Assembly: GCF_002285265.1 (NCBI RefSeq)
Contig: NZ_NSJB01000012.1
Location: 1 to 64,000 of the forward strand
Length of the DNA: 64,000 nt
Direction of reading: 5' to 3'
Source: Vandammella animalimorsus
GTDB taxonomy: Bacteria > Pseudomonadota > Gammaproteobacteria > Burkholderiales > Burkholderiaceae_C
The notes below the pieces were generated by a model. It saw nothing but the letters and a program-made list of their open reading frames with translations, made no database searches and was not told the origin of the DNA. A program made the position numbers and the translations under genes. This document shows, one piece after another, positions 29,624 to 58,943 of the stretch (positions within the stretch are counted from its first letter, which is position 1; each line of letters opens with the position of its first letter).

Positions 29624-30136
29624 ATGTCCCTCGCGCCCGCCTACCAGCAGCAAGTCCAAGCCCTGTACCTGCGCCATCACGGCTGGCTGCACGGCTGGCT
29701 GCGCCGCCGCCTGGGCGATGGCGACGCCGCCGCCGACCTGGCGCACGACACCTTCGTGCGCCTGCTGGGCCGCCCGCATGCGCTGCACGCGCTGCGCGAG
29801 CCGCGCGCCTATCTGGGCGCCATTGCCCACGGCTTGGCCGCCAGCCACCTGCGCCGCCGCGCGCTGGAAGCCGCCTGGCTGCAAACCCTGGCCGCCCTGC
29901 CCGAAGCGCACGCCCCCTCGCCCGAGCGGCGCGCCATCACGCTGCAAACCCTGCACCAGCTCGACGAGGCCCTGCACACCCTGCCCGCGCGCGTGCGCCA
30001 GGCCTTTCTGATGGCGCAGTTCGACGGCATGAAGCAGCGCGACATCGCCGCCGCCCTGGGCCTGTCCGTGCCCACCGTCAAAAAGTACATGCAGCGCGCC
30101 TGGCTGGCCTGCCTGCACCTCATGCCCGAGGACTGA
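29624..30136 (+). CDS. ECF sigma factor, FecI family (locus 1)
   Basis: A 170-residue extracytoplasmic-function sigma factor of the iron-starvation FecI group. Region 2 (about residues 10-80) contains GDGDAAADLAHDTFVRLLG, which recognises the -10 element. Region 4 (about 110-165) contains [41 protein letters not shown], the helix-turn-helix for the -35. It should direct RNA polymerase to the receptor gene at 32004 when the signal arrives. Start ATG at 29624. The fecR-type gene follows 11 bases later, so the two are cotranscribed. Confidence 0.92.
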   Translation: MSLAPAYQQQVQALYLRHHGWLHGWLRRRLGDGDAAADLAHDTFVRLLGRPHALHALREPRAYLGAIAHGLAASHLRRRALEAAWLQTLAALPEAHAPSPERRAITLQTLHQLDEALHTLPARVRQAFLMAQFDGMKQRDIAAALGLSVPTVKKYMQRAWLACLHLMPED

Positions 30137-30147
30137 GGCCGCGCCCC

Positions 30148-31224
30148 ATGGCCGAGCCGCTCAACCACCCTGCCAGCGCCCCCATCGCCGAGCCCATCGA
30201 CGAGCGCATCCTGGCCGAAGCCGCCGCCTGGCTGGCCCAGCTGCAAGACGGCCCCCTGCCCCCCGCCGAACAAGCCCGCCTGGCCGCCTGGCGCCAGCAA
30301 AGCCCGCAGCACCAGCGCGCCTGGCAGCGCGCCGAGCGCCTGCTGGACCAACTCAACGCCCTGCCCGCCCCGCTGGCCGGCCCCGCCCTGCACGCCAGCG
30401 CGCAAGCCAGCCGCCGCGCCAGCCTGGCCCGCATTGCCAATGTGGCCAAGGGCACGGCCCTGGCGCTGCTGATCGCCCCCGGCGCCTGGCTGCTGTGGCA
30501 GCGCCAGCCCTGGCAGCAGTGGCGCCACTGGATGGACGCCGACTACGCCGCCCTGCCCGGCCAGAACCTGGACTTGCAACTGGACGACGGCAGCCAGCTC
30601 AGCCTGCACGCCGGCAGCCAGCTCGACGTGCGCTACAGCCGCCGCCAGCGCCTGCTGCACCTGCGCCAAGGCGAGCTGTACGTGCACACCGCCGCCGACA
30701 GCGCCCAGCCGCCGCGCCCCTTCATCGTCAGCACCGCGCACGGGCGCATGCAGGCCCTGGGCACGCGCTTTGCCGTGCGGCGACTCGATGGCCGCGATGG
30801 CCGCAACAACGGCAGTGATGGCGGCAATGATGGCGGCAGCACCCTGCTCGCCGTTTACGAAGGCGCGGTGCGCATCGAACCGGCCAAGGCCCCGAGCGCC
30901 GCGCACCAAACCCTGCGCGCCGGCCAGCAGGCCCGCTTCACGCGCGATGCCATCGCCCCCGCCAGCGCCGCCCGCGAGGCCGACACCGCCTGGCGCCGGG
31001 GCCTGCTCATCGCCGACGCCATGCCCCTGCCCGACTGGGCCGCCGCCCTGGCCCGCCACAGTGGCCGCGCCATCCGCGTGCTGCCCGCCGCCCAGGCGCT
31101 GCGCATCTCCGGCACCTTCCCTTTGAACGACCCCGACCGCGCCCTGCGCATGCTCGCCGCCACCTTGCGCCTGCGCATCCGCCAGCGGGGCCAGGGCGAA
31201 GGCGCGGTGGTGGAGATTGGCTGA
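30148..31224 (+). CDS. FecR-family anti-sigma/regulator (locus 1)
   Basis: A 358-residue single-pass inner-membrane regulator. The N-terminal DUF4880-type cytoplasmic domain (AAAWLAQLQDGPLPPAEQARLAAWRQQSP, residues about 25-75) binds the sigma factor. A transmembrane helix (about 108-127, TALALLIAPGAWLLW) follows. Then comes the periplasmic FecR domain (about 140-280), with DGSQLSLHAGSQLDVRY and FIVSTAHGRMQALGTRFAV. The C-terminal part resembles the STN-contacting domain. An insert rich in Asp, Gly, Asn and Arg (about residues 212-230) is encoded by imperfect GATGGC-type repeats, probably a flexible loop. It should receive the receptor's signal and release or activate the sigma factor. Confidence 0.9.
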   Translation: MAEPLNHPASAPIAEPIDERILAEAAAWLAQLQDGPLPPAEQARLAAWRQQSPQHQRAWQRAERLLDQLNALPAPLAGPALHASAQASRRASLARIANVAKGTALALLIAPGAWLLWQRQPWQQWRHWMDADYAALPGQNLDLQLDDGSQLSLHAGSQLDVRYSRRQRLLHLRQGELYVHTAADSAQPPRPFIVSTAHGRMQALGTRFAVRRLDGRDGRNNGSDGGNDGGSTLLAVYEGAVRIEPAKAPSAAHQTLRAGQQARFTRDAIAPASAAREADTAWRRGLLIADAMPLPDWAAALARHSGRAIRVLPAAQALRISGTFPLNDPDRALRMLAATLRLRIRQRGQGEGAVVEIG

Positions 31225-32003: not shown

Positions 32004-34532
32004 ATGGCCCGCCGCGCCATTTCCATCGCCGTCCCCACCGCCATCCCCGTCACCCTTGCCACCGGCCGCCCCCGCCGCCTCACGCCAGCCGCCATACAGA
32101 CACGGGCGCGGCCGCATGGCCTGCGCCCCAGCGCGCTGGCATTGGCCGCATTCGCCACCGCCAGCCTGGCCGCTGGCGGCGCGCTGCTGCCCGCCCGCAG
32201 CGCCCAGGCCCAAACCGCCGCCACCGCCACCCAGGCCACTGCCCCGGCCACGCGCCACTACCACCTGCCCGCCGGGCCGCTGGGCGCCTCGCTGGCGGCC
32301 TTTGCCGGGCAGGCCGGGCTGCTGCTGTCCTTCGACCCGGCGCTGACCCAGGGCCGCCAAGCCCCCGCCCTGCAAGGCCAGCACAGCCCGCAAAGCGGCC
32401 TGGCCGCGCTGCTGGCCGGCAGCGGCCTGCAAGCCGTGCAGCAGGCCGACGGCAGCTTCACGCTGCGCCGCGCCCCGGCCCCCGCGCGCGCCGCGGATGC
32501 CAGCGTGCAAACCCTGCCCGCCGTCACCGTGCAAGCCGCGCCCGAAACCGCCACCGGCCCCGTGCCGGGCTACGCCGCGCGCCGCAGCGCCACGGCCACC
32601 AAGACCGATACGCCGCTGTTGGAGACGCCGCAGTCCATCAGCGTGGTGGGCGCCGAGGAAATCGAAGACCGCGGCGCCAGCAACTTGATGGAAATCGGCC
32701 GTTATACGGCCGGCGTGCAGGTAGAGTCGTATGGCAATGGCGCGCATTACAACTGGATCAGCCTGCGCGGTTTCAATGCCAACGCTTCCACCTACGTCAA
32801 CGGCCTGCGCGCGCCTTCGTCGGGCTATGTCTCGCGGCTGACGAACCCGTTCGAGGTAGAGCGCTTCGAGGCGCTGCGCGGCCCCAGCTCGGCGCTGTAT
32901 GGCCTGGGCGATGCGGGCGGCGTCATCAACGTCATCACCAAGCAGGCCGGGCCAGAAGCTGAGCGGCAGGTGCAGGCCGAGCTGGGCAGCCACCGCAAGG
33001 CGCTGGGCGTGGACGTGGGCGGCGCGCTGGATGCGCAGCGCAGCCTGCACTGGCGCGTGGTGGCCGCGGCCAACCACAACCGGCATTTCTTCGCCATTCC
33101 CGGCCATGGTCGCCAGACTTACCGTAGCCATGTGCTGGCCCCTTCATTGAGCTGGACGCCCAATGCCGACACCACGCTGACGCTGCATGGCCGCTGGTTC
33201 CGCAAGCAGGGGGCGGATCAGGAAACGCAGTTTCTGGGCGCCGACCGCCAGTCGTCCAGCGGCTGGAGCAACAGCAACCCGAGCTTCAGCTTCGGCAATA
33301 CCCGGCAAGGCGAATGGGGCTACCAGTTCAGCCACCGCCTGCACGCTGGCTGGTCGATCCAGCAGCGCTTCGTGAGCGGCAGCCACCGTTTTCATGGCGG
33401 CTGGCTGTATGGCGAAGGCCCGGCCGACCCGCAAACGGGCGAGCTGGCGCAAACCGCCTATGAAAACGACAACCGCATGCGCCACACCGCGCTGGACACG
33501 CAGCTGCAAGGCCAGTGGCACAGCGGCCGCGTGCGCCACACGCTGGCGCTGGGGCTGGATGCGCATGCATCGCGCTTTGCCAGCGTCAACCGCGACGATC
33601 CGGCAGAAAGCCTGAACATCTTCCTGCCGCCAGAGGCGCAATACCGCCGCCCCGTGCCGCCGCCCACCACGGTCAATACCGATGAGCAAACGCGCCAGCG
33701 CCAGATTGGCCTGTACCTGCAAGACCAGATGCAGCACGGCCCCTGGCGGCTGACGCTGGGCGGGCGCTATGACCGCGTGCACACGCGCCTGGACAACCGG
33801 CTGGACGGCTCGCAAACGCGCGAGAAGGATGGTGCCTTCTCCGGCCGCGTGGCGCTGGGCCATGTCTGGCCCAGCGGCTGGGCGCCGTACCTGAGCTACG
33901 CCACCTCCTTCCTGCCCGAAAGCGGCGCCGATGCCCACGGCGCGCTGTTCAAGCCCACGCGCGGCCAGCAGTGGGAACTGGGCCTGAAATGGCAGCCCAG
34001 CGGGCGCGAGCTGCTGCTCACCGCCGCCGTGTTCGACCTGCGCAAGACCAACGTGCCCACCAATGATCCCGAGCACTACGGCCACCGGCGCCAGACCGGC
34101 GAAGTGCGCTCGCGCGGGCTGGAGCTGGAAGCCAAGGGCGCGCTCACCCGCCAGCTCAAGCTCACCGCCCAGCTCACCGTGCAGGACGTGAAGATTGCCC
34201 GCAGCGAGGACGGCGACCAGGGCAACCGGGTGGACAACGTGCCGCGCATGCTGGCCTCCGCCTGGCTGGACTACCGCCTTGCCGCCGCACCCGGCCTGAG
34301 CGCCGGCCTGGGGGTGCGCCACACCGGCAGCCGCTACGCCTACAGCGACAACCAGATCGCCATGCCCGCCCACACCCTGCTGGACGCCGCGCTGCGCTAC
34401 GAGCGCGGCCCCTGGCAGGCGGCGCTGAACGTCAGCAACCTGAGCAACAAGCGCTATGCATCGAGCTACGGCTGGGGCTACTACCCCGGCCTGCCGCGCA
34501 CGGTGACGGCCAGCCTGAAGTACCGCTTCTGA
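32004..34532 (+). CDS. TonB-dependent siderophore receptor with STN signalling domain (locus 1)
   Basis: An 842-residue outer-membrane transducer. A long N-terminal lead with a twin-basic stretch ends in the signal-peptide core LALAAFATASLAAGGALLPARSAQAQ. An STN (secretin/TonB short N-terminal) domain, residues about 85-150 (YHLPAGPLGASLAAFAGQAGLLLS), contacts the anti-sigma protein. The TonB box/plug region follows (VTVQAAPETAT, ETPQSISVVGAEEI, RFEALRGPSSALYGLGDAGGVINV). The barrel ends in VTASLKYRF. Plug and barrel match ferric siderophore receptors of the FpvA/FhuE type. With the FecI/FecR pair upstream it forms a cell-surface-signalling system. Residues around 180-200 are almost identical to the second receptor at 54232. 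Confidence 0.92.
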   Translation: MARRAISIAVPTAIPVTLATGRPRRLTPAAIQTRARPHGLRPSALALAAFATASLAAGGALLPARSAQAQTAATATQATAPATRHYHLPAGPLGASLAAFAGQAGLLLSFDPALTQGRQAPALQGQHSPQSGLAALLAGSGLQAVQQADGSFTLRRAPAPARAADASVQTLPAVTVQAAPETATGPVPGYAARRSATATKTDTPLLETPQSISVVGAEEIEDRGASNLMEIGRYTAGVQVESYGNGAHYNWISLRGFNANASTYVNGLRAPSSGYVSRLTNPFEVERFEALRGPSSALYGLGDAGGVINVITKQAGPEAERQVQAELGSHRKALGVDVGGALDAQRSLHWRVVAAANHNRHFFAIPGHGRQTYRSHVLAPSLSWTPNADTTLTLHGRWFRKQGADQETQFLGADRQSSSGWSNSNPSFSFGNTRQGEWGYQFSHRLHAGWSIQQRFVSGSHRFHGGWLYGEGPADPQTGELAQTAYENDNRMRHTALDTQLQGQWHSGRVRHTLALGLDAHASRFASVNRDDPAESLNIFLPPEAQYRRPVPPPTTVNTDEQTRQRQIGLYLQDQMQHGPWRLTLGGRYDRVHTRLDNRLDGSQTREKDGAFSGRVALGHVWPSGWAPYLSYATSFLPESGADAHGALFKPTRGQQWELGLKWQPSGRELLLTAAVFDLRKTNVPTNDPEHYGHRRQTGEVRSRGLELEAKGALTRQLKLTAQLTVQDVKIARSEDGDQGNRVDNVPRMLASAWLDYRLAAAPGLSAGLGVRHTGSRYAYSDNQIAMPAHTLLDAALRYERGPWQAALNVSNLSNKRYASSYGWGYYPGLPRTVTASLKYRF
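32538..32605 (+). repeat. 68-bp block shared with the second receptor gene (54655-54722)
   Basis: The two receptor genes share this 68-base block with only two differences, coding for the TonB-box-to-plug junction (APETATGP, GYAARRSATATKT). Flanking sequence is much less alike. It suggests recent gene conversion, domain swapping or strong constraint. Confidence 0.85.
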
Positions 34533-50510: not shown

Positions 50511-50671
50511 GCGCCGCCGGGCAAGGCGTGTTCTCTGCACACGCCGCAGCAACAAGCGCGTGCGCTGCGGCGCGCACAGCCCTTGCCCGAAGACCTGCCC
50601 AAAGGCCGCAGCAAGGCCACCGCAAGATCACAGCAAGGCCGCGCCGCATGGGGCGCAGAGTGCGAAAACAG

Positions 50672-50693
50672 CAATGATTCGCATTGATAATCG
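50672..50693 (+). promoter_or_regulatory. Fur-like box upstream of the hybrid sigma/anti-sigma gene
   Basis: CAATGATTCGCATTGATAATC lies 7-28 bases before the ATG and fits the GATAAT/ATTATC hexamer array of Fur boxes with few mismatches. TGATAAT within it could also serve as the -10, which would give a very short leader. Iron repression of this locus is therefore likely. Confidence 0.55.
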
Positions 50694-50699
50694 CACCCC

Positions 50700-52256
50700 A
50701 TGCCGCCACCGCCCACACTCGACGCCCCCAACTGGCCCGCCCCGGCGGGCTTTCGCGCCATCACCGCCCGCCTGCAAAAACAGGTGCAGCGGCGCACCGG
50801 CTGCGCCGAAGACGCGCGCGATCTGGTGCAAGACGCCTGGCTGCGCCTGCTGGAGCAAGGCGATGCCGCGCGACGCCTGCGCGAGCCCGCCGCCTGGCTC
50901 AGCGCCGTGGCGCACCACCTCACGCTCGACCACCTGCGCCAGCGGCAGGCCGCCGCCCGCTGCGGCCTGCCCCGCCACGGCAGCCACGGCAGCGGCGATG
51001 GCAATGGCGCAGGCCACAACGACGGCGGCGACGATGCCGCCATCGCCCCCTGGCAGGCCCAGCCCGACGCCGCCGAATCCCTGATGTACCGCCAGGCGCT
51101 CGATGCCGTGCAGGCCGCCCTGCACGCCCTGCCCGAGCGCGCGCGCCAAGCCTTCCTCGCCCACCGCCTGCACGGCACGCCCCAGAGCGAGCTGGCCGCG
51201 CGCCACGGCGTCAGCCTCGCCACCATCGAGCGCGATGTGCAGCAGGCCAGCGCCCGCCTGCACGCCGCCTTGCTGCACTGGCGCGGCGAACACCCCCAGG
51301 CCAACGCCAACGCCAGCAACGAGCGCCCGGCCCCGCCCCGTCGCCGCTCGCTCACCGCCCTGCTGGGCCTGGCCGCCCTCAGCGGCAGCGGCCTGCTGGG
51401 CTGGCGGGTGTGGCAACACAGCGCCGCCCGCCCGCTGCTGGCGCTGGCCCTGCACACCCCGCGCGGCCAGCTCGCCCGCCAGGCCCTGCCCGACGGCAGC
51501 GCCCTCACCCTCGACGCCGCCAGCCGCGCCCACATCACCTACCGCCGCGCCCTGCGCCACGTGCAACTGCTGCACGGCGCGCTGTTTGCCGAAGTGGCCC
51601 ACGACCCCCAGCGCCCCTTCGTCGTCGAAGCCGCCCTGCCCCAGCCCGCCGCCGCCACTACCGCAGACAGCCCCGCAGACGCCACCGCAACCAGCACCGC
51701 CCAAGCCGCCCCCGATGCCCCCGATGCCCCCGATGCTCCCGATGCTCGCCCCCGCGTGCGCATCACCGTGCTGGGCACCCGCTTCAGCGTGGACATCGCC
51801 CCCGCCGGCATCGACGTGCGCGTAGCCCAGGGCCGCGTGCGCGTTGAGTGGCTGGACGCCGGCGGCCAGCCGCGCAGCCAGCGCGATCTGCACCCTGGCC
51901 AGGGCCTGCGCCTGAGCGCCGCCAGCCCCGCCCCCATCGAACTGCCCGCCAGCAGCGCCGCCAGCCCTGGTGATGACGCCGACCAGCACGCCGCCCCCTG
52001 GCGCCACGGCCACCTGCGCTTTCACGCCGAACCCCTGGCCCACGCCATCGCCCGCCTGGCGCGCTACCAGCGCGAAGACGCCGCCCCCATCAAGCTTGAC
52101 CCGCGCGTAGCCTCGCTCGCCATCAGCGGCCAGGTGCCCCTGCGCCACGCCCACGACTGGCTGCAATCCCTGCCCGCCGTGCTGCCCGTCACCGTGCGCC
52201 GCCAGGGCCAGGGCTGGCACATTGCCCCGCGCGCCAACCCGCGCGCGCGGCGGTAA
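50700..52256 (+). CDS. Hybrid ECF sigma factor / FecR anti-sigma protein (locus 2)
   Basis: A single 518-residue polypeptide containing both halves of a Fec regulator. Residues about 15-190 are an ECF sigma factor: region 2 with CAEDARDLVQDAWLRLLEQG and region 4 with LPERARQAFLAHRLHGTPQSELAARHGVSLATIERDVQQA. They are separated by a Gly/His/Asp/Asn-rich insert (about 95-125). Residues about 218-240 (LTALLGLAALSGSGLLGW) are a transmembrane helix. Residues about 250-410 are a periplasmic FecR domain (LPDGSALTLDAASRAHITYRR, VLGTRFSVDI). The end (about 430-518) is an STN-contacting type domain. There is no stop or frameshift between halves. The one described precedent I know is IutY of Pseudomonas putida. 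Activation probably needs proteolytic release of the sigma part. Confidence 0.88.
   Translation: MPPPPTLDAPNWPAPAGFRAITARLQKQVQRRTGCAEDARDLVQDAWLRLLEQGDAARRLREPAAWLSAVAHHLTLDHLRQRQAAARCGLPRHGSHGSGDGNGAGHNDGGDDAAIAPWQAQPDAAESLMYRQALDAVQAALHALPERARQAFLAHRLHGTPQSELAARHGVSLATIERDVQQASARLHAALLHWRGEHPQANANASNERPAPPRRRSLTALLGLAALSGSGLLGWRVWQHSAARPLLALALHTPRGQLARQALPDGSALTLDAASRAHITYRRALRHVQLLHGALFAEVAHDPQRPFVVEAALPQPAAATTADSPADATATSTAQAAPDAPDAPDAPDARPRVRITVLGTRFSVDIAPAGIDVRVAQGRVRVEWLDAGGQPRSQRDLHPGQGLRLSAASPAPIELPASSAASPGDDADQHAAPWRHGHLRFHAEPLAHAIARLARYQREDAAPIKLDPRVASLAISGQVPLRHAHDWLQSLPAVLPVTVRRQGQGWHIAPRANPRARR
51711..51746 (+). repeat. Four 9-bp tandem repeats coding for Pro-Asp-Ala
   Basis: CCCGATGCC/T occurs four times in tandem in frame, adding PDAPDAPDAPDA to the periplasmic domain just before the conserved FecR strand. 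In-frame slippage would alter loop length without breaking the protein. Confidence 0.85.
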
Positions 52257-52356: not shown

Positions 52357-52361
52357 TTTTG

Positions 52362-52661
52362 ATGCAATCGTCCGCATGGCTCCCCTCGTCCTTTCCGTCA
52401 AGTTTTTTGCGCAAAGCAGCGGCAGAAGACCGCAAGGCCATCGGCACGGACATCAAAACCGTGCCAATCGGCTGGCCGCTGGGCATGCCTTTGGTGCGCA
52501 AGCTGGAGCCGCATTTGTGGGAAGTGCGCTGCGCCATTGCCGACGGCATCGCCCGTGTGCTGTTCACCGTGCAGGACGGGCACATGGCGCTGCTGCACGC
52601 CTTCGTGAAGAAGTCCCAGAAAACCCCCGCGACCGAACTGGAAACCGCGCGCTCGCGCTAG
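52362..52661 (+). pseudogene. HigB/RelE-type (Gp49-like) toxin, damaged N-terminus
   Basis: From residue about 20 the frame is a clear Gp49/HigB-like toxin: AEDRKAIGTDIKTVPIGWPLGMPLVRKLEPHLWEV and RVLFTVQDGHMALLHAFVKKSQKTP. The residues before it (MQSSAWLPSSFPSSFLRK) do not match the family. The expected N-terminal strand appears in another frame just upstream (VLSVKFFAQSSGR, about 52394-52432), and the conserved EPVREWL helix is missing. This is best explained by a small deletion with frameshift around 52425-52435. The last residues are also short of the usual end. Toxin activity is doubtful. A 99-residue product from the ATG at 52362 remains possible. Confidence 0.65.
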
Positions 52662-52681
52662 AAACAACTGGGGCAAGCCAC

Positions 52682-52966
52682 ATGACCCCCAACCCCCACA
52701 TCGGCACCGGCTTTGACGACTTCCTGGCCCAGCAAGGCATGCAAGAAGAAGCCGCTGCCGCCGCGATGAAGCGCGTCATCGCCTGGCAACTGGCGCAGGC
52801 CATGAAGCGCCAGGGCATCACGCAAACCGAAATGGCCCAGCGCATGCGCACCAGCCGCATGGTCGTCAAACGCCTGCTTGACGAAACCGACACCAGCGTG
52901 ACGCTGGCCACCCTGGCGCGCGCCAGCGTCGCCGTGGGCCTACCCATGCGCTTTGAGCTGGCCTGA
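52682..52966 (+). CDS. higA: HigA-type XRE-family antitoxin
   Basis: A 94-residue antitoxin with a helix-turn-helix: AMKRVIAWQLAQAMKRQGITQTEMAQRMRTSRMVVKRLLDETDTSVTLATLARASVAVG. This pattern accompanies Gp49/HigB-like toxins. The N-terminal segment (GFDDFLAQQGMQEEAA) is the usual toxin-contact region. It starts 20 bases after the damaged toxin gene. The gene appears intact and could act as a solitary repressor. It lies within signalling locus 2 between the hybrid regulator and the receptor. Confidence 0.88.
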   Translation: MTPNPHIGTGFDDFLAQQGMQEEAAAAAMKRVIAWQLAQAMKRQGITQTEMAQRMRTSRMVVKRLLDETDTSVTLATLARASVAVGLPMRFELA

Positions 52967-53040: not shown

Positions 53041-53550
53041 TCACCCCGCTCCTGGCGTCAGCGGCACGCTGGCCAAGGGCAGGAACAAGGTGCGTGGCGA
53101 ATCCGGCAGGGCCATCAAGCCGTGGTGCCGGTAAAAGGCCGCGGCCGTGGCGTCCTTGGCATCCACGATCAGCGCGTAGGCGGCAATCTCCGAACGGGCG
53201 GCACGGCGCAATGCATCGGCCAGCAGGGCCGCCCCCAGCCCCTGCCCCTGAAAAGCCCGGTCCACCGCCAGGCGGCCCAGGCGCACGGCCGGCACCGTGG
53301 GGTAGCGCGGCAGCTTGCGGCCAATGGCGGTGGGCAAATCTCCCAGCAGCACACTGGCCGAGGCCAGCGTGTAATAGCCCGCAATGCGTTGCCCAGCCCC
53401 CAGCGCCACAAAGCAGGCGGCCACGCGGCGGCGCATGTCCTGGCCGGCCTGCTCACGCAGATAGCGGTTCAGCGGCGGCGAGGCGCTGTCGAACGCCGTG
53501 CGCTCGTGCGCGGCATCCAGCAGCGCCAGCCGGAAGGGCGCACCGCTCAT
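53041..53550 (-). CDS. GNAT-family toxin, TacT-like
   Basis: A 169-residue acetyltransferase of the TacT/AtaT toxin group, which acetylate aminoacyl-tRNA and stop translation. Typical stretches: FDSASPPLNRYLREQAGQDMRRRVAACFVAL at the start, AGYYTLASASVLLGDLP, and the acetyl-CoA site VRLGRLAVDRAFQGQGLGAALLADALRRA. YALIVDAKDATAAAFYRHHGL follows. All core motifs are present, so it looks functional. Its start overlaps the antitoxin stop (ATGA, 53547-53550). The pair is oriented opposite to the flanking iron genes. Confidence 0.9.
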   Translation of the reverse strand: MSGAPFRLALLDAAHERTAFDSASPPLNRYLREQAGQDMRRRVAACFVALGAGQRIAGYYTLASASVLLGDLPTAIGRKLPRYPTVPAVRLGRLAVDRAFQGQGLGAALLADALRRAARSEIAAYALIVDAKDATAAAFYRHHGLMALPDSPRTLFLPLASVPLTPGAG

Positions 53551-53873
53551 CCGGCGTCTGCGGCCGCCGCGCCCGCGGCCCCCGCGGGCGGTTCAGGGCG
53601 CAACAACTGGCCGTGGCGGGCCAAGGCGCGCTCCAGCGCCGCAGCCGGCGGCGGCGGCGACAACATGGCCTGCGCAAAGCATTGCTGATCGGCCAGCGAC
53701 AGGCGCACCAGCTCCGCCTGCTCAATGGCGCGCTGGGCCGCCTCCTGCACGGCGGCTATCACGAAATCCGTCATCGTGCGCCCCTGCAACTCGGCAGCGC
53801 GCTTGAGCAGGGCATGCAAATCGGTACTGATCCTCGCCTCAAGGCGGGCGTTGGCGCTGGTGGTCACAGACAT
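53547..53873 (-). CDS. DUF1778 antitoxin, TacA-like
   Basis: A 108-residue ribbon-helix-helix antitoxin of the DUF1778 family paired with the GNAT toxin. NARLEARISTDLHALLKRAAELQGRTMTDFVIAAVQEAAQRAI is the signature, followed by a toxin-binding tail (LADQQCFAQAMLSPPPPAAALERALARH). The C-terminus is extended by an Ala/Gly/Pro stretch. Start at the ATG 53873 (MSVTTSANARLEARIS); a GTG eight codons earlier adds nothing conserved. Neutralises the toxin and presumably represses the pair's promoter. Confidence 0.9.
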   Translation of the reverse strand: MSVTTSANARLEARISTDLHALLKRAAELQGRTMTDFVIAAVQEAAQRAIEQAELVRLSLADQQCFAQAMLSPPPPAAALERALARHGQLLRPEPPAGAAGAAAADAG

Positions 53874-54231
53874 AGGGGGCAAGGGCTGATTGAACACAGA
53901 TGGGGCGGATGTTCCGGCAATCTGCCGTACAAATCAAGCCCACATCGCCAGCCCGCACCGCCCCTGTTACAAAAAACCTGAGGGAAACGCCCTCGTCATC
54001 CGTCAACACCCATGACGGCCCGTTTTGGGCTGGTCAACCGGGCGGGTTGCGGCGTTTGCGCCGTCTTGGCGCGCGCGGGCAGGCGGCGGTTCGGGCCAGG
54101 CGATGCCACGCGGCAGACCGGCCCCATCCGCGCGCTGGCCTGCCGCGCCGGGGCCGTGAGCAGCCCCAACCCGCCGCCCCTTGCCGCGCGCATGCGCGCC
54201 CATGATCCATTTGACGAAGGACGACACCACC
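53874..54231. other. Shared upstream region of tacA-tacT and the second receptor
   Basis: About 358 bases without a recognisable gene. A GGAAAC (53983-53988) inside the small hairpin GAGGG-CCCTC (53980-53994) resembles the -35 of ECF promoters, and a CGTC follows, but the spacing is not canonical. The receptor promoter must lie here if it is driven by the hybrid sigma factor. Confidence 0.35.
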
Positions 54232-56661
54232 ATGCTTGCTGCCCCGTTCCGCCCCCGCGCCGCCGCCGCTGCGGCCGCGCTGGCCTGCACCCTGGCCGCC
54301 TGGCCCGCGGCCCAGGCCCAAACAGCCAACCCAGCGGCCAACCCGGCCACGGCATCCACCCCGGCCGCCGCCATCCACCTGCCCGCCCAGCCGCTGGCGC
54401 ACAGCCTGGCCGCGTTGGCGCAGCGCAGCGGCGCCTCGCTGGCCTATGCGCCCGAGCTGGTGGCGGGCAAACAGGCCGCCGCCGTGCAAGGCGCGCCCGG
54501 CGTGGGCGCGGCGCTGGCGCAAATGCTGCGCGGCACCGGCCTGCAAGCGCGCCAGCAGGGCCAGACCTGGACGATCCAGCCCGCCCCAACCCGCGCCGCC
54601 GCCGCAGGCAGCGCGGGCGATGCCCAGACCCTGCCGGCCATCACCGTGCAGGCCGCGCCCGAAACCGCCACCGGCCCGGTGCTGGGCTACGCCGCGCGCC
54701 GCAGCGCCACGGCCACCAAGACGGACACGCCGCTGGTGGAAACGCCGCAGTCCGTCAGCGTGATCGGCGCCGAGGAGATCGAGGCCAAGGGCATGCGCGA
54801 TGTGCTGGACACGCTGGGCTACATGCCGGGCGTGCTCCCCCGAATGTGGGGTCCCGATGGCCGGGGCTATGAATACATGATGCTGCGCGGCTTTGACAAC
54901 CTGGCAGCCCAGAACTTCCTCGACGGCCTGGCGCAAATGAGCTTCGTGGGCATTGCCCCACACACCGAGGTCTATGGCATGGAGCGCATCGAGGTGCTGC
55001 GCGGCCCGGCCTCGACCACCTTCGGGCGGGCCGACGTGGGCGGCATCGTCCACCGCGTCAGCAAGCGGCCCACGCTGGACGAGCCGGTGCGCGAGGTGCA
55101 GGCGCAACTGGGCAATTACCGGCAGCGGCAACTGGCCTTCGACTACGGCGGCAAGCTGGGCGAGCAGACCGCTTACCGCCTGGTGGGGCTGGCGCGCCAG
55201 GGCCGCTCGCAAGACCGCTACCCCACGGGCGAATGGGACACGGCCAAGCGCCAGTACTTCGCCCCCTCGCTGCTGTGGCAACCCTCGGCCGCTACCCGCC
55301 TGACGCTGCTGGCCTCGGTGCTGCGCCATGACGCGAGTGATGACATCAGCTATGTATCCGACAGCAACGGTCAGCCCACCCAGGTGCGCGAAGGCGACCC
55401 GCGCTACAGCCGCATCAAGCACGACAACTGGTCGCTGGGCTATGAGCTGCGCCACGACTTCAACGCCCAATGGGGCCTGCGGCAAAACTTCCGCCACGCC
55501 AAGCGTGTCGGGGATAAACATCACACCTATTCCTCACTGCAGGATGACGGGCGTACGTTCACGCGCACGGCCGAACGCAACGAAGGCAACCTGCGGCAAA
55601 CCTCGCTGGATACTTACTTGGAAGGGCGCTTGCAAACCGGCGCGGTGCGCCACCAGCTGATTGCCGGGCTGGACTTCACCCAGGCGCGAGGCTTGGAGAC
55701 GCAAAAAAGCGGACCGGCCTCAGACCTGGACCTCTACAACCCTGTGTACCACCCCATCACCCCGCCCAGCGTAGTGACCGACATTGCCGGGCCGAACAAG
55801 CTGCGCGCGCTGGGGCTGTATGCGCAAGACCAGATGCGCATGGGCGAGCAATGGCTGCTGACGCTGTCGGGCCGGCACGACACGGTGAGGGGGGATGACG
55901 CCTCCAGCTCGCGCGGGCAACGCCAAAGCCGCACCGACCGCGCCTTCACCGGCCGCGCCGCGCTCACCTGGCTGGCCCCCGGCGGCTGGGCGCCTTATGT
56001 GAGCTACGGCACCTCCTTCCTGCCCGCCTTGGGCGCTTATGACACGTTCGATGCCAAGCCCACCACCGGCCGCCAATGGGAGCTGGGCATCAAATACCAG
56101 CCCCCGGGGCAAAGCCTGTTGCTGAGCGCTGCCGTGTTCGACCTGCGCAAGCGCAACATCACCGTGAGCAACCCCATCACCAACCGCGATGAGCAGGTGG
56201 GCGCCATGCGCTCGCGCGGGCTGGAACTGGAGGCCAAGGGCCGCCCGTTGCCTGCCTTGCCCGGCCTGCACGCCACCGCCGCCTACACCTATAGCGACGT
56301 CAAAGGCCTGGCGGGCAGCACCTGGCGCGTGGAGGCGGGCAAGGCCCCCATCCAGGTGCCCAAGCACATGGCCTCGCTGTGGCTGGACTACCGCTTGGCC
56401 GAAGGCCGCCTGCGCGGCCTGCACCTGGGCCTGGGCGCGCGCCACGTGGGCCGCCGCTGGGACGACGCGGCCAACACCCGCGCGCAACCGGGCTACACGC
56501 TGGTGGACGCCAGCCTGCGCTACGACCTGGGCGCCAACTGGCGCCTGGCGCTGAACGTGCACAACCTGCTCAACAAGAAGTACTTCGCCAGCAATCCTTT
56601 CAATGACTGGTGGCGCGGCGAGCAGCGCACGGTGACGGCCACGGCCACCTACCGCTGGTAA
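54232..56661 (+). CDS. TonB-dependent siderophore receptor with STN signalling domain (locus 2)
   Basis: An 809-residue outer-membrane transducer. Signal peptide core [23 protein letters not shown] domain about residues 45-110 (IHLPAQPLAHSLAALAQRSGASLAYAPELV). TonB-box/plug with VTVQAAPETAT, ETPQSVSVIGAEEI, MLRGFDNLAAQNFLDG and RIEVLRGPASTTFGRADVGGIVHRVSK. A barrel follows, ending VTATATYRW. A FpvA/FhuE-type ferric siderophore receptor that should signal to the hybrid sigma/anti-sigma protein. Two toxin-antitoxin pairs separate it from that gene. It shares a nearly identical 68-base junction with the first receptor, although the rest diverges. ATG at 54232 has AAGGA upstream. Confidence 0.92.
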   Translation: MLAAPFRPRAAAAAAALACTLAAWPAAQAQTANPAANPATASTPAAAIHLPAQPLAHSLAALAQRSGASLAYAPELVAGKQAAAVQGAPGVGAALAQMLRGTGLQARQQGQTWTIQPAPTRAAAAGSAGDAQTLPAITVQAAPETATGPVLGYAARRSATATKTDTPLVETPQSVSVIGAEEIEAKGMRDVLDTLGYMPGVLPRMWGPDGRGYEYMMLRGFDNLAAQNFLDGLAQMSFVGIAPHTEVYGMERIEVLRGPASTTFGRADVGGIVHRVSKRPTLDEPVREVQAQLGNYRQRQLAFDYGGKLGEQTAYRLVGLARQGRSQDRYPTGEWDTAKRQYFAPSLLWQPSAATRLTLLASVLRHDASDDISYVSDSNGQPTQVREGDPRYSRIKHDNWSLGYELRHDFNAQWGLRQNFRHAKRVGDKHHTYSSLQDDGRTFTRTAERNEGNLRQTSLDTYLEGRLQTGAVRHQLIAGLDFTQARGLETQKSGPASDLDLYNPVYHPITPPSVVTDIAGPNKLRALGLYAQDQMRMGEQWLLTLSGRHDTVRGDDASSSRGQRQSRTDRAFTGRAALTWLAPGGWAPYVSYGTSFLPALGAYDTFDAKPTTGRQWELGIKYQPPGQSLLLSAAVFDLRKRNITVSNPITNRDEQVGAMRSRGLELEAKGRPLPALPGLHATAAYTYSDVKGLAGSTWRVEAGKAPIQVPKHMASLWLDYRLAEGRLRGLHLGLGARHVGRRWDDAANTRAQPGYTLVDASLRYDLGANWRLALNVHNLLNKKYFASNPFNDWWRGEQRTVTATATYRW

Positions 56662-56715: not shown

Positions 56716-56803
56716 TGCAAGGCGCCTGCAAAGTGCCTGCAAAGTGCCTGCAAAGTGCCTGCAAAGTGCCTGCAAAGTGCCTGCGAGGTGCTTGCGAGGT
56801 GCA
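56716..56803 (+). repeat. 11-bp tandem repeat, eight units
   Basis: Units of TGCAAAGTGCC: five perfect copies (56727-56781) flanked by one degenerate unit before (56716-56726) and two after (56782-56803). It lies between the receptor stop and the convergent RHH/PIN pair. The units are contiguous, with no spacers. Not coding in any convincing frame. Confidence 0.93.
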
Positions 56804-56836: not shown

Positions 56837-57073
56837 TCACCGCGCATCGCCCGGCGCGGGCGGGGCATCGGGCACGCGCTCCAGCACGGCCAGAAAATCC
56901 TCGCGCCGCCCCTGCGCCGCCTCGGCGCGCAGGTGCTCCAGCGTCAGCCAACTGGCCAGCTTCTCCGCCGTGGCGCTGGCAATGAACTGGTTGACGGAGA
57001 TGCCATCGCGCGCGGCCAGCTCTTTCACTTTGCGGTGGATGGAATCGGGCAGGCGAATCGTCAGGGCGGTCAT
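56837..57073 (-). CDS. RHH-type antitoxin of a PIN toxin
   Basis: A 78-residue ribbon-helix-helix protein: MTALTIRLPDSIHRKVKELAARDGISVNQFIASATAEKLASWL is the Arc/MetJ-type DNA-binding unit, with a helical tail (LEHLRAEAAQGRREDFLAVLERVPD) for toxin binding. This form is often labelled HicB-family antitoxin but pairs here with a PIN protein. Its start overlaps the toxin stop (57070-57073), and the toxin gene is upstream, a reversed order seen in the PIN COG1569 group. Looks intact. Confidence 0.85.
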   Translation of the reverse strand: MTALTIRLPDSIHRKVKELAARDGISVNQFIASATAEKLASWLTLEHLRAEAAQGRREDFLAVLERVPDAPPAPGDAR

Positions 57074-57492
57074 GGGGTGCTCTCCAGAAGGTTCAAGAAT
57101 TCAGCAGGTGTGAGGGCTTGGATACCGAAGGCCGATGTGCCCCGGAAATCCCGCGTGTTGTGCGTGATGATGTAACGGCTGGCCGAGGCCACGGCGCATT
57201 CCAGCACCATGTCGTCGTCCGCATCGCGCAGGAACGGGCGCCACAGGTAATACACATCCTGCAAATGCGCCAGCGAGGCCAGGTAGCGCAAAAAGCCTTG
57301 CATTTGCGCCACGTCAACGCCGGCGGGCACATGCTCTGGCCGCGTGAGGACAGCTTGCCATTCCATGTACAGCGCCACCGACAAGGCCGGGCGGAACTTG
57401 GGCGATGGCAATTGCCGCAGCAAATGGTGGCTCGCGCCGCTTCGAGAGCGCATCGCGGCCACCAGCACAGAGGTATCCAGAACGATCAACAT
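57070..57492 (-). CDS. PIN-domain toxin, COG1569-type
   Basis: A 140-residue putative endoribonuclease toxin. PIN acidic residues are in MLIVLDTSVLVAAMRSRSGA (first Asp), YMEWQAVLTRPEH (Glu), LRDADDDMVLECAVAS (Asp cluster) and ITHNTRDFRG (last Asp). These are the catalytic positions expected for metal-dependent RNA cleavage, so the toxin appears competent. Start at ATG 57492; a longer start at 57519 adds unconserved residues. It lies between the receptor and the PepSY gene of locus 2, on the opposite strand. Confidence 0.87.
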   Translation of the reverse strand: MLIVLDTSVLVAAMRSRSGASHHLLRQLPSPKFRPALSVALYMEWQAVLTRPEHVPAGVDVAQMQGFLRYLASLAHLQDVYYLWRPFLRDADDDMVLECAVASASRYIITHNTRDFRGTSAFGIQALTPAEFLNLLESTP

Positions 57493-57593
57493 GGTTGCGC
57501 CAGTGTAACCACGCAGCATCCAAAAAGCACCACCCCAGCCTCATTTCTTGCCTCATTGATTACTCCATTTCTTTGAAAAGGCTCTTGCCCCTC

Positions 57594-58943
57594 ATGCCCC
57601 CGCCGCACACCCAAGCCCGCCCCAAGCCATCCCGCCTGCTGCGCCCGGCCCTGCTCAAACTGCACCGCTGGGCGGGCCTGGCCTTGGCCGCCTTTCTGGC
57701 GCTCACCGGCCTGACCGGGGCCGTGATGGCCTGGACGGACGAGCTGGACGCGCTGCTGAACCCACACATGCTGCGCACGCCCGGCACGCCGGCGCAGGAT
57801 GCGGCGCAGTTGCTGGCGCTGGCCGCGCGGGTGGAGGCCGCGCAGCCGCAGTGGCGCGTGACCAGCCTGCCGCTGGCGCTGGAGCCGGGGCAGGCGGCCA
57901 TGCTGCGCGTGGCGGCCAAACCGAGTGCGGATGCCAGCACGGGCACGGACGCGAGCGCACCGCTGGGCTTTGACCAGTTGTTCGTGCACCCGGCGAGCGG
58001 TCAGATTCTGGGCCAGCGGCAATGGGGCCAGTGGCGCGGCGGCTCGCTGGCGCAGGCGCGGCAAGATGTGCTGCCTTTCATCTACAAGCTGCACTACAGC
58101 CTGCACCTGCCCGGCGTGTGGGGCGTGTGGCTGCTGGGCGGCGTGGCCTTGCTGTGGGCGCTGGATTGCCTGTGGGCGCTGGCGCTGGCCTTCCCCAGCC
58201 GCAAGGCGTGGCGCAAGTCCTTCGCGTTTCGCTGGGGCGCGGGCGGGCACAAGCTGACGTTCGATCTGCACCGCTCGGGCAGCGTGTGGCTGTGGCCGCT
58301 GCTGCTGGCGCTGGCGATGACCGGCGTGGGGCTGAATCTGCGCACGGAAGTCATGCAGCCGCTGGTGGCGTGGTTTTCGCCCGTGCCGCCCGAGCCTTGG
58401 GCGGGCCGCCAGCCCTTGCCCCCAGGGCAAGCGGCCATCGGGCGCGAGCGCGCGCTGCAATTGGCGCTGGAGCGGGCGCGGCAGTTGGGCTGGCTGGGCG
58501 ATGCGCCCGTCGCGCGCCCATCCACCATCCACACCGCTGCCGCGGCTTCATCGCCCGCCACGCCCGCCCCTGGCGCAGCCAAGGCGCTGGGCTTGCAGCC
58601 CTGGCGGCTGTACGACTGGCAGGATGCAGACGGGCTGTACGCCGTGGCCTTTGCCGCGCCGGGGCGCGAGCCTTACGGCCCGGCGCTGGGGCCGCACTGG
58701 GTGTATCTGGATGCCGCAAGCGGCACCGTGGCAGGCGTGCGCACGGGCCTGGGCGGCAGCGCGGGCGAGGTGTTCATGGCCGCGCAGTACCCGCTGCACT
58801 CGGGCCGCATTCTGGGCGTGGCAGGCCGCGCGCTGGTCAGCCTGCTGGGGCTGGCGGTGGCCGTCATCAGCGTGACGGGGGTGATGATCTGGCTGCGCAA
58901 GCGCCGCGCCGGGCTGCCCCAGCGCGGGGCGCCAAAGGGTTAG
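57594..58943 (+). CDS. PepSY-associated transmembrane protein (iron uptake type)
   Basis: A 449-residue inner-membrane protein with four or more helices. The first unit is [26 protein letters not shown], with HRWAGL characteristic of the PepSY_TM/PiuB family. Further segments are [46 protein letters not shown] and [34 protein letters not shown] and [14 protein letters not shown] are heme-ligand-like histidine motifs. Relatives sit next to siderophore receptors and may reduce ferric siderophores. The receptor at 54232 is its logical partner, though a toxin-antitoxin pair lies between. Its stop abuts a truncated RNase Z-like gene. Confidence 0.85.

Follow-up and report, generated by a model that had tools for sequence, protein, structure and literature searches.

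The analysed stretch of DNA (the window) comprised the first 64,000 bp of contig NZ_NSJB01000012.1 of Vandammella animalimorsus. On its forward strand, a single gene at 50700..52256 encoded an ECF sigma factor fused to a FecR-type anti-sigma factor (518 aa), as recognized from its open reading frame, its Pfam matches and its conservation among orthologues. In the ORF listing, the frame ran from an ATG start through 518 codons to a TAA stop without interruption, as stated in the preliminary description, and it was kept in two sister genomes (G007 and G009). The sigma half comprised Sigma70_r2 (residues 24–83; 50769..50948) and Sigma70_r4_2 (residues 135–187; 51102..51260), and both Pfam matches exceeded the curated cut-offs. 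It was followed by a short linker of predicted cytoplasmic location (approximately residues 195–212; 51282..51335), which was delimited by profile searches and dN/dS and carried no DUF4880 domain, and by one membrane segment at a hydropathy peak (residues 217–235; 51348..51404). This segment was only moderately hydrophobic (1.39 over 19 residues) and was preceded by three arginines at 213–215, of which those at 214–215 were invariant in the alignment. Thus, an ECF sigma factor and a FecR periplasmic domain lay in a single frame with one membrane segment between them.

The FecR core (residues 251–312; 51450..51635) exceeded the curated Pfam cut-off and included D265, R286, F307, and V309, which were placed from the alignments. 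Alignment and dN/dS also delimited an Ala/Pro-rich insertion of about 39 residues (51636..51752) on the 5′ side of the GT self-cleavage motif, Gly359-Thr360 (51774..51779), which was located from the alignments. The insertion was complete in only three of the 16 aligned proteins (those of the window, G007, and G009), and a shorter version was present in L039; a 9-base tandem repeat was found inside it. The C-terminal part (approximately residues 431–510; 51990..52229) was STN-like, and its residues 431–506 matched the PDB chain 6ovk_R (E 5.5e-05), which is labelled "Siderophore-interacting protein" and which we take to be the periplasmic domain of PupR. Just 5′ of the start codon, sequence comparison revealed an AT-rich block (50670..50694, forward strand) as a possible Fur site. 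The block was kept in G007 and partly in G009; it resembled a Fur box by eye and did not rank among the top 14 sites when the DNA was scanned with a simple consensus.

A TonB-dependent receptor with STN, plug and barrel domains was found by profile search at 54232..56661 on the same strand and was presumed to be the partner of the fused regulator. Two toxin-antitoxin pairs intervened between the two genes, at 52359–52966 and 53041–53897. They consisted of a Gp49-like toxin with a weakly matching HTH partner, and of a GNAT protein with a TacA1-like partner. G009 matched only the GNAT/TacA region (94.5%), and G007 contained neither pair. The window also held a second iron-signalling locus on the forward strand (locus 1), in which profile searches detected a FecI-type sigma factor (29624..30136), a FecR with a DUF4880 anti-sigma domain (30148..31224) and an STN receptor (32004..34532), the last also from the receptor comparison. 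As previously proposed, this was an ordinary two-protein Fec system: its sigma and anti-sigma genes were separate, and those at 50700..52256 were not.

Conservation of the Fused Reading Frame

The openness of the 518-codon frame was in itself weak proof of a gene, because this DNA is GC-rich and often shows long frames by chance; one of 556 aa lay antisense to the fused gene. The comparison with the sister genomes was more informative. The entire frame was found at 90% identity in G007 and G009, and among the three genomes the dN/dS values were 0.19–0.43 in the folded domains (one value undefined), 0.41–0.88 in the loop between the sigma regions, and 0.84–1.9 in the linker and the Ala/Pro-rich insertion, single values being rough because dS was only about 0.1 and the counts were small. 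The linker showed no sign of purifying selection in this comparison. The fused gene is under purifying selection in its folded domains.

An error in sequencing or assembly, or decay of the gene, might also be held responsible for the fusion, in view of the draft state of the genome (22 contigs) and of a few relatives (L080 and L072) that do look frameshifted. This is scarcely conceivable, given that the same frame occurred in two sister genomes and in many genera, that another fusion lay on a complete circular plasmid, and that the folded domains were under purifying selection. An artefact or a chance frame was thus rejected on the basis of the conservation, the sister genomes, the many genera and the closed plasmid. 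The two observations named beforehand as fatal to the fusion both failed to appear: it was conserved rather than created by a sequencing error, and no stop near codon 200 was found in close relatives.

Distribution of Fused Regulators

A second fusion was present in the window's own genome (G000:C1:8014-9480). At the genus level, open frames revealed at least one fusion in eight of 10 genomes, the window's own included, and none in G005 and G006. At the family level (80 genomes, one per genus), full-length fusion matches occurred in at least eight genomes with at least 11 genes, which is a lower bound since up to 21 candidates were scored per genome; one of the 11 genes, in G025:C42, was apparently frameshifted. 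Beyond the family, 80 genomes of the order and 369 genomes of the class were covered, and a full-length fusion was found only in the window's own genome, these frequencies being lower bounds with up to 21 and four candidates scored per genome, respectively. Eight genomes of the genus of G425 (possibly Pseudomonas) yielded no full-length fusion.

A scan of named relatives confirmed 239 stretches, and the best 80 of the 239 were analysed, nine of which duplicated loci already in the set. Both halves were in one frame in 41 of these best 80 and in two genes in 36, while the remaining three showed only FecR, near a contig end. Two of the 41, L080 (Acidovorax sp. CCYZU-2555) and L072 (a Xylophilus MAG), were apparently frameshifted inside the sigma part. 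Pieces of their sigma parts lay in another, overlapping frame, and in L081 (Rhodoferax sp. OV413) the STN and barrel of the receptor likewise fell in overlapping frames. Because the peptide pattern used in the scan included the GT motif, its hits carried GT by construction; 15 fusions found without this pattern (L031–L045) carried GT too. The scan also placed fusions in Thauera, Pseudothauera, a Rhodocyclaceae MAG and Mesopusillimonas. The proposed search for a single sigma-membrane-FecR chain in Comamonadaceae therefore gave a positive answer, with 41 fused relatives among the best 80 (two of them apparently frameshifted) and a main fused clade in the tree that was mostly Comamonadaceae. The statement that described examples are rare was correct for the literature searched; it did not hold for the genomes of the family, and the fused switches turn out to form a sizeable family.

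Outside the best 80, the complete circular Diaphorobacter plasmid NZ_CP049906.1 (L214) carried sigma, FecR and receptor genes followed by a fused gene and a receptor, and the public annotation of its fused protein was merely "sigma-70 family RNA polymerase sigma factor." The two-protein and the one-protein system stood in tandem on this plasmid, each with its own receptor. In L053, L054, L056, L064, L066, and L070, the fused gene likewise had a two-gene pair no more than 5 kb away. In L132 (G143), L087, and L088, sigma and FecR were in the same frame with a single stop between them, which is a possible route to fusion.

Phylogeny of Fused and Split Regulators

A quick tree was built from 134 rows, 84 of two-gene and 50 of fused regulators, in which L045 and L164 were one gene. 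Forty-five of the 50 fused rows fell in one clade (SH-aLRT 100), which was mostly Comamonadaceae plus Zoogloeaceae/Rhodocyclaceae. The other five were found in other places: L045/L164, L083/L085 (Hydrogenophaga) and L086 (Mesopusillimonas). The tree needed four changes between the split and the fused state, likewise when only the starred branches were counted. These four changes are most simply read as four fusions, in a tree that does not distinguish gain from loss and in which several rows were flagged as long or odd in composition.

Absence of the Cytoplasmic Anti-Sigma Domain

The FecR of locus 1 carried DUF4880 (49.6 bits). This domain was absent from the fused protein and, at E 0.01, from all 16 fused proteins searched. 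Our own anti-sigma profile, built from the N-termini of split FecRs (72 rows), scored at least 10 bits with 83 of the 84 split FecRs, the majority of which belonged to its training set, and with one of the 50 fused rows, where the match lay inside sigma region 4. Only L045 (in G001; L164 is the same gene) looked like a fusion with a worn anti-sigma stretch, with a weak match of 6.8 bits at the right place. Candidate fusions with a retained anti-sigma domain at L132 (G143) and at L130 (one G267 locus) were rejected, as sigma and FecR were separate frames there. The distance between the end of the sigma match and the membrane segment was 16–39 residues in the measured members of the fused clade, eight in L083/L085, four in L086 and 54 in L045.

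Sigma regions 2 and 4, the membrane segment and the FecR periplasmic domain were thus all present, as stated in the preliminary description; the usual cytoplasmic anti-sigma part of FecR was missing. The preliminary description overlooked this absence, as well as the wide spread of the fusion and the exchange of receptor halves. Because fused proteins lack a domain that an ordinary FecR has, the covalent link between sigma and FecR probably replaces the cytoplasmic anti-sigma domain of the two-protein systems. This domain was gone in three of the four fused groups, which suggests that tethering alone may be enough to restrain the sigma factor. A natural family of one-protein switches makes it possible to test whether membrane tethering suffices to silence a sigma factor, and why the two plans occur side by side.

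Comparison with Known Systems and Proposed Mechanism

The fused protein shared the sigma type, the FecR periplasmic domain, the GT motif and the STN receptor with FecI/FecR, FoxI/FoxR, and PupI/PupR, and its C-terminal match to 6ovk_R presumably extends the likeness to PupR. It differed from them in that they consist of two proteins with a cytoplasmic anti-sigma domain.

The closest known system was IutY of Pseudomonas putida, the one-protein sigma/anti-sigma regulator of the aerobactin system (PMC5411451). It has a cytosolic ECF sigma factor, one membrane segment, a periplasmic FecR domain and an STN receptor as partner, as in our case. The sigma domain of IutY was given as residues 8–164, and a form of 168 residues was purely cytosolic (PMC9249621, PMC5411451); judging by this published numbering, IutY too seems to lack the anti-sigma domain. 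On the other hand, IutY has 374 residues vs. 518 in the fused protein, it belongs to other bacteria, its receptor is IutA instead of an FhuA/FoxA-like one, and the accessible text of PMC5411451 does not mention an Ala/Pro-rich insertion. In ECF48, ECF52, and ECF53, the anti-sigma factor is also joined to the sigma factor in one chain, and proteolysis has been proposed (PMC8999054). However, these are Actinobacterial proteins with zinc-finger C-terminal membrane extensions, and FecR or an STN receptor went unmentioned in the accessible part of that review (PMC8999054). The same review listed IutY under ECF243, a FecI-like group of ECF sigma factors, with an asterisk in its table that we read as "only certain members" (PMC8999054). 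IutY has been called unique, or the sole experimentally characterized case, in the accessible parts of the literature, and it was the only FecR fusion found described in a search whose scope lay outside most subscription journals. The architecture is therefore already known, and the fused protein is one more example of the IutY kind. What seems to be new is how broad the clade is, that the anti-sigma domain is missing repeatedly, and the exchange of barrels described below.

According to the available text on IutY, the protein is cut by Prc and RseP and the sigma factor is freed; nine truncated versions showed constitutive activity, and RseP was required by every one that retained the membrane segment (PMC5411451). 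Mutation of D210, R231, F251, V253, W301, or L313/L317/L320 made IutY constitutive, as far as the accessible text goes. Matched by spacing only, D265/R286 of the fused protein corresponded to D210/R231 (21 residues apart in both), W434/L446/I450/L453 to W301/L313/L317/L320 with the same spacing, and F307/V309 to F251/V253, R231 and F251 being 20 residues apart in IutY vs. 21 here. Except for I450, these residues were mostly invariant or nearly so in the alignments. The GT motif, which is the self-cleavage site of FecR and FoxR according to the portions seen of PMC8144685 and PMC11637429, was invariant at G359-T360 in the 16-row and 26-row alignments. RseP (304 bits, cut-off 147.55) and a Prc-type protease (315.3 bits, cut-off 218.6) were both encoded in the window's genome. 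Their presence says little because both families are near-universal; in the control genomes the RseP family was found in 14 of 14 and the Prc type in 11 of 14.

By analogy, it is very likely that the fused protein is a one-protein cell-surface-signalling regulator which works like IutY, with its sigma factor freed by proteolysis and the receptor at 54232 driving it. The N-terminal sigma factor would be kept inactive by its inner-membrane tether, that is, the short linker and the one membrane segment, and the periplasmic FecR half would read the STN domain of the receptor. When the receptor binds a ferric siderophore, a Prc-like protease would trim the periplasmic part and RseP would then cut the membrane segment. 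The freed sigma factor would switch on the receptor promoter, for which a block at 53964..54022 (forward strand), nearly identical in the window, G007, and G009, is the candidate. The precedent of IutY together with the conserved sites argues for a sigma half that is cut loose. It might instead act while still tethered, perhaps through a change of conformation at the membrane, and the fusion would then not be a proteolytic switch; the linker between sigma region 4 and the membrane segment is up to 39 residues long in some members, which might bring a tethered sigma factor within reach of RNA polymerase. We consider this very improbable, since IutY forms that retain the membrane segment need RseP, as far as described in PMC5411451, and since the GT motif and the control residues were kept.

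The Presumed Partner Receptor

The supposed link to a siderophore receptor was supported by the STN-bearing receptor at 54232 and by the relatives, as 44 of 46 non-redundant fused loci were followed on the same strand by an STN receptor (43 by search, and L042 by reading the N-terminus). The exceptions were L086, in which the receptor search found only a downstream fragment without a recognized STN, and the fused regulator L034 (G007:C10, 9170-10675), which had no downstream receptor and was followed by a Ppx/GppA-like frame. The homologue of L034 in the window's genome, L031 (contig C1), does have a receptor. A dyad search for a common sigma-target motif 5′ of the receptors of the fused clade recovered pairs that scored above shuffles and that were GC-rich and coding-like.

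One may ask whether some other receptor serves the fused regulator, the one at 54232 being a mere neighbour beyond two toxin-antitoxin pairs, as the gap between regulator and receptor was about 2 kb in the window vs. about 340 bp in G007, and as a receptor-less fused gene (L034) exists in G007. This is very improbable, because the STN domain was 94–95% identical across the three fused loci although the barrel differed, and because the block upstream of the receptor was conserved in all three genomes. As for the ligand of the partner receptor, the barrel was FhuA/FoxA-like and yet scored below every equivalog cut-off; from this similarity, a hydroxamate-type xenosiderophore would be our guess.

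Mosaic Structure of the Receptors

The STN domains of the three fused-locus receptors (window, G007, and G009) were 94–95% identical. The barrel of the window's fused-locus receptor, however, was only 41% identical to those of G007 and G009, and it was 88% identical to the barrel of a receptor on contig C9 of G007. The receptor of locus 1 (32004) was the counterpart: compared with the two-gene locus of G007, its STN was 94% but its barrel only 42% identical, and this barrel shared 95% identity with the fused-locus barrel of G007 and 93% with that of G009. The receptor comparison placed the boundary of the mosaic in the linker/TonB-box tract (54592..54756, forward strand), of which 30 residues were 90–100% identical in all seven receptors compared; at the DNA level, the identity changed over within codons 121–190. 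The receptors thus appear, from their sequences, to be mosaics in which the STN stays with the regulator while the plug and barrel are exchanged between loci.

The shared tract would also be a natural place for a misjoin, and a chimera made by the assembly at this repeat could mimic recombination, the longest exact runs among the receptors compared being 53 bp in the window's genome and 83 bp in G007. Such a chimera is highly improbable: the longest exact run common to the two receptors of the window was only 39 bp, the pairings differed between independent assemblies, and in the two-gene locus both flanks of the changed receptor remained syntenic, at 91–93% identity.

The homology to C9 extended past the barrel to window position 58913, across a PIN-domain gene (57070–57519, reverse strand) and a PepSY_TM gene (about 57594–58943, forward strand) located 3′ of the receptor. 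Because G009 has the same stretch (84%) behind its own fused-locus receptor, the presence of the stretch does not depend on this barrel.

The generality of the pattern was assessed across the tree, with receptors assigned by nearness to 82 of the 134 units, which may add noise. Thirty-six pairs of regulators were at least 70% identical, and 13 of them had barrels less than 60% identical. After removal of two rows sharing one receptor, one row with a short overlap and near-identical rows, the identity of the regulator correlated with that of the STN in 36 fused (rho 0.69) and 38 split rows (rho 0.86; Mantel p 0.001). Its correlation with the barrel was weak in the fused rows (rho 0.36, p 0.001) and not detectable in the 38 split rows (rho 0.06, p 0.18). 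This indicated that free assortment is clearer for the split loci.

Here, we propose as the probable explanation that regulator and STN form a fixed pair, that plug and barrel form a cassette which recombines at the TonB-box tract, and that in the fused regulators tethering alone restrains the sigma factor. Since the cassette would move between pairs, nearly the same barrel is controlled by one protein in the two sister species and by a two-protein system here. The literature search, within the same scope outside most subscription journals, gave no pointer to barrel exchange between signalling loci, and the recombination in the accessible part of PMC11444679 concerned synthetase clusters rather than receptors. 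The mosaics amount to a natural experiment, in which close relatives place almost the same barrel under the two different plans, and they suggest a way for bacteria to rewire the sensing of ligands while the signalling chain stays as it is.

Just 3′ of the receptor gene, an 11-base tandem repeat (unit TGCAAAGTGCC) was present in 7.3 copies at window positions 56716–56795.
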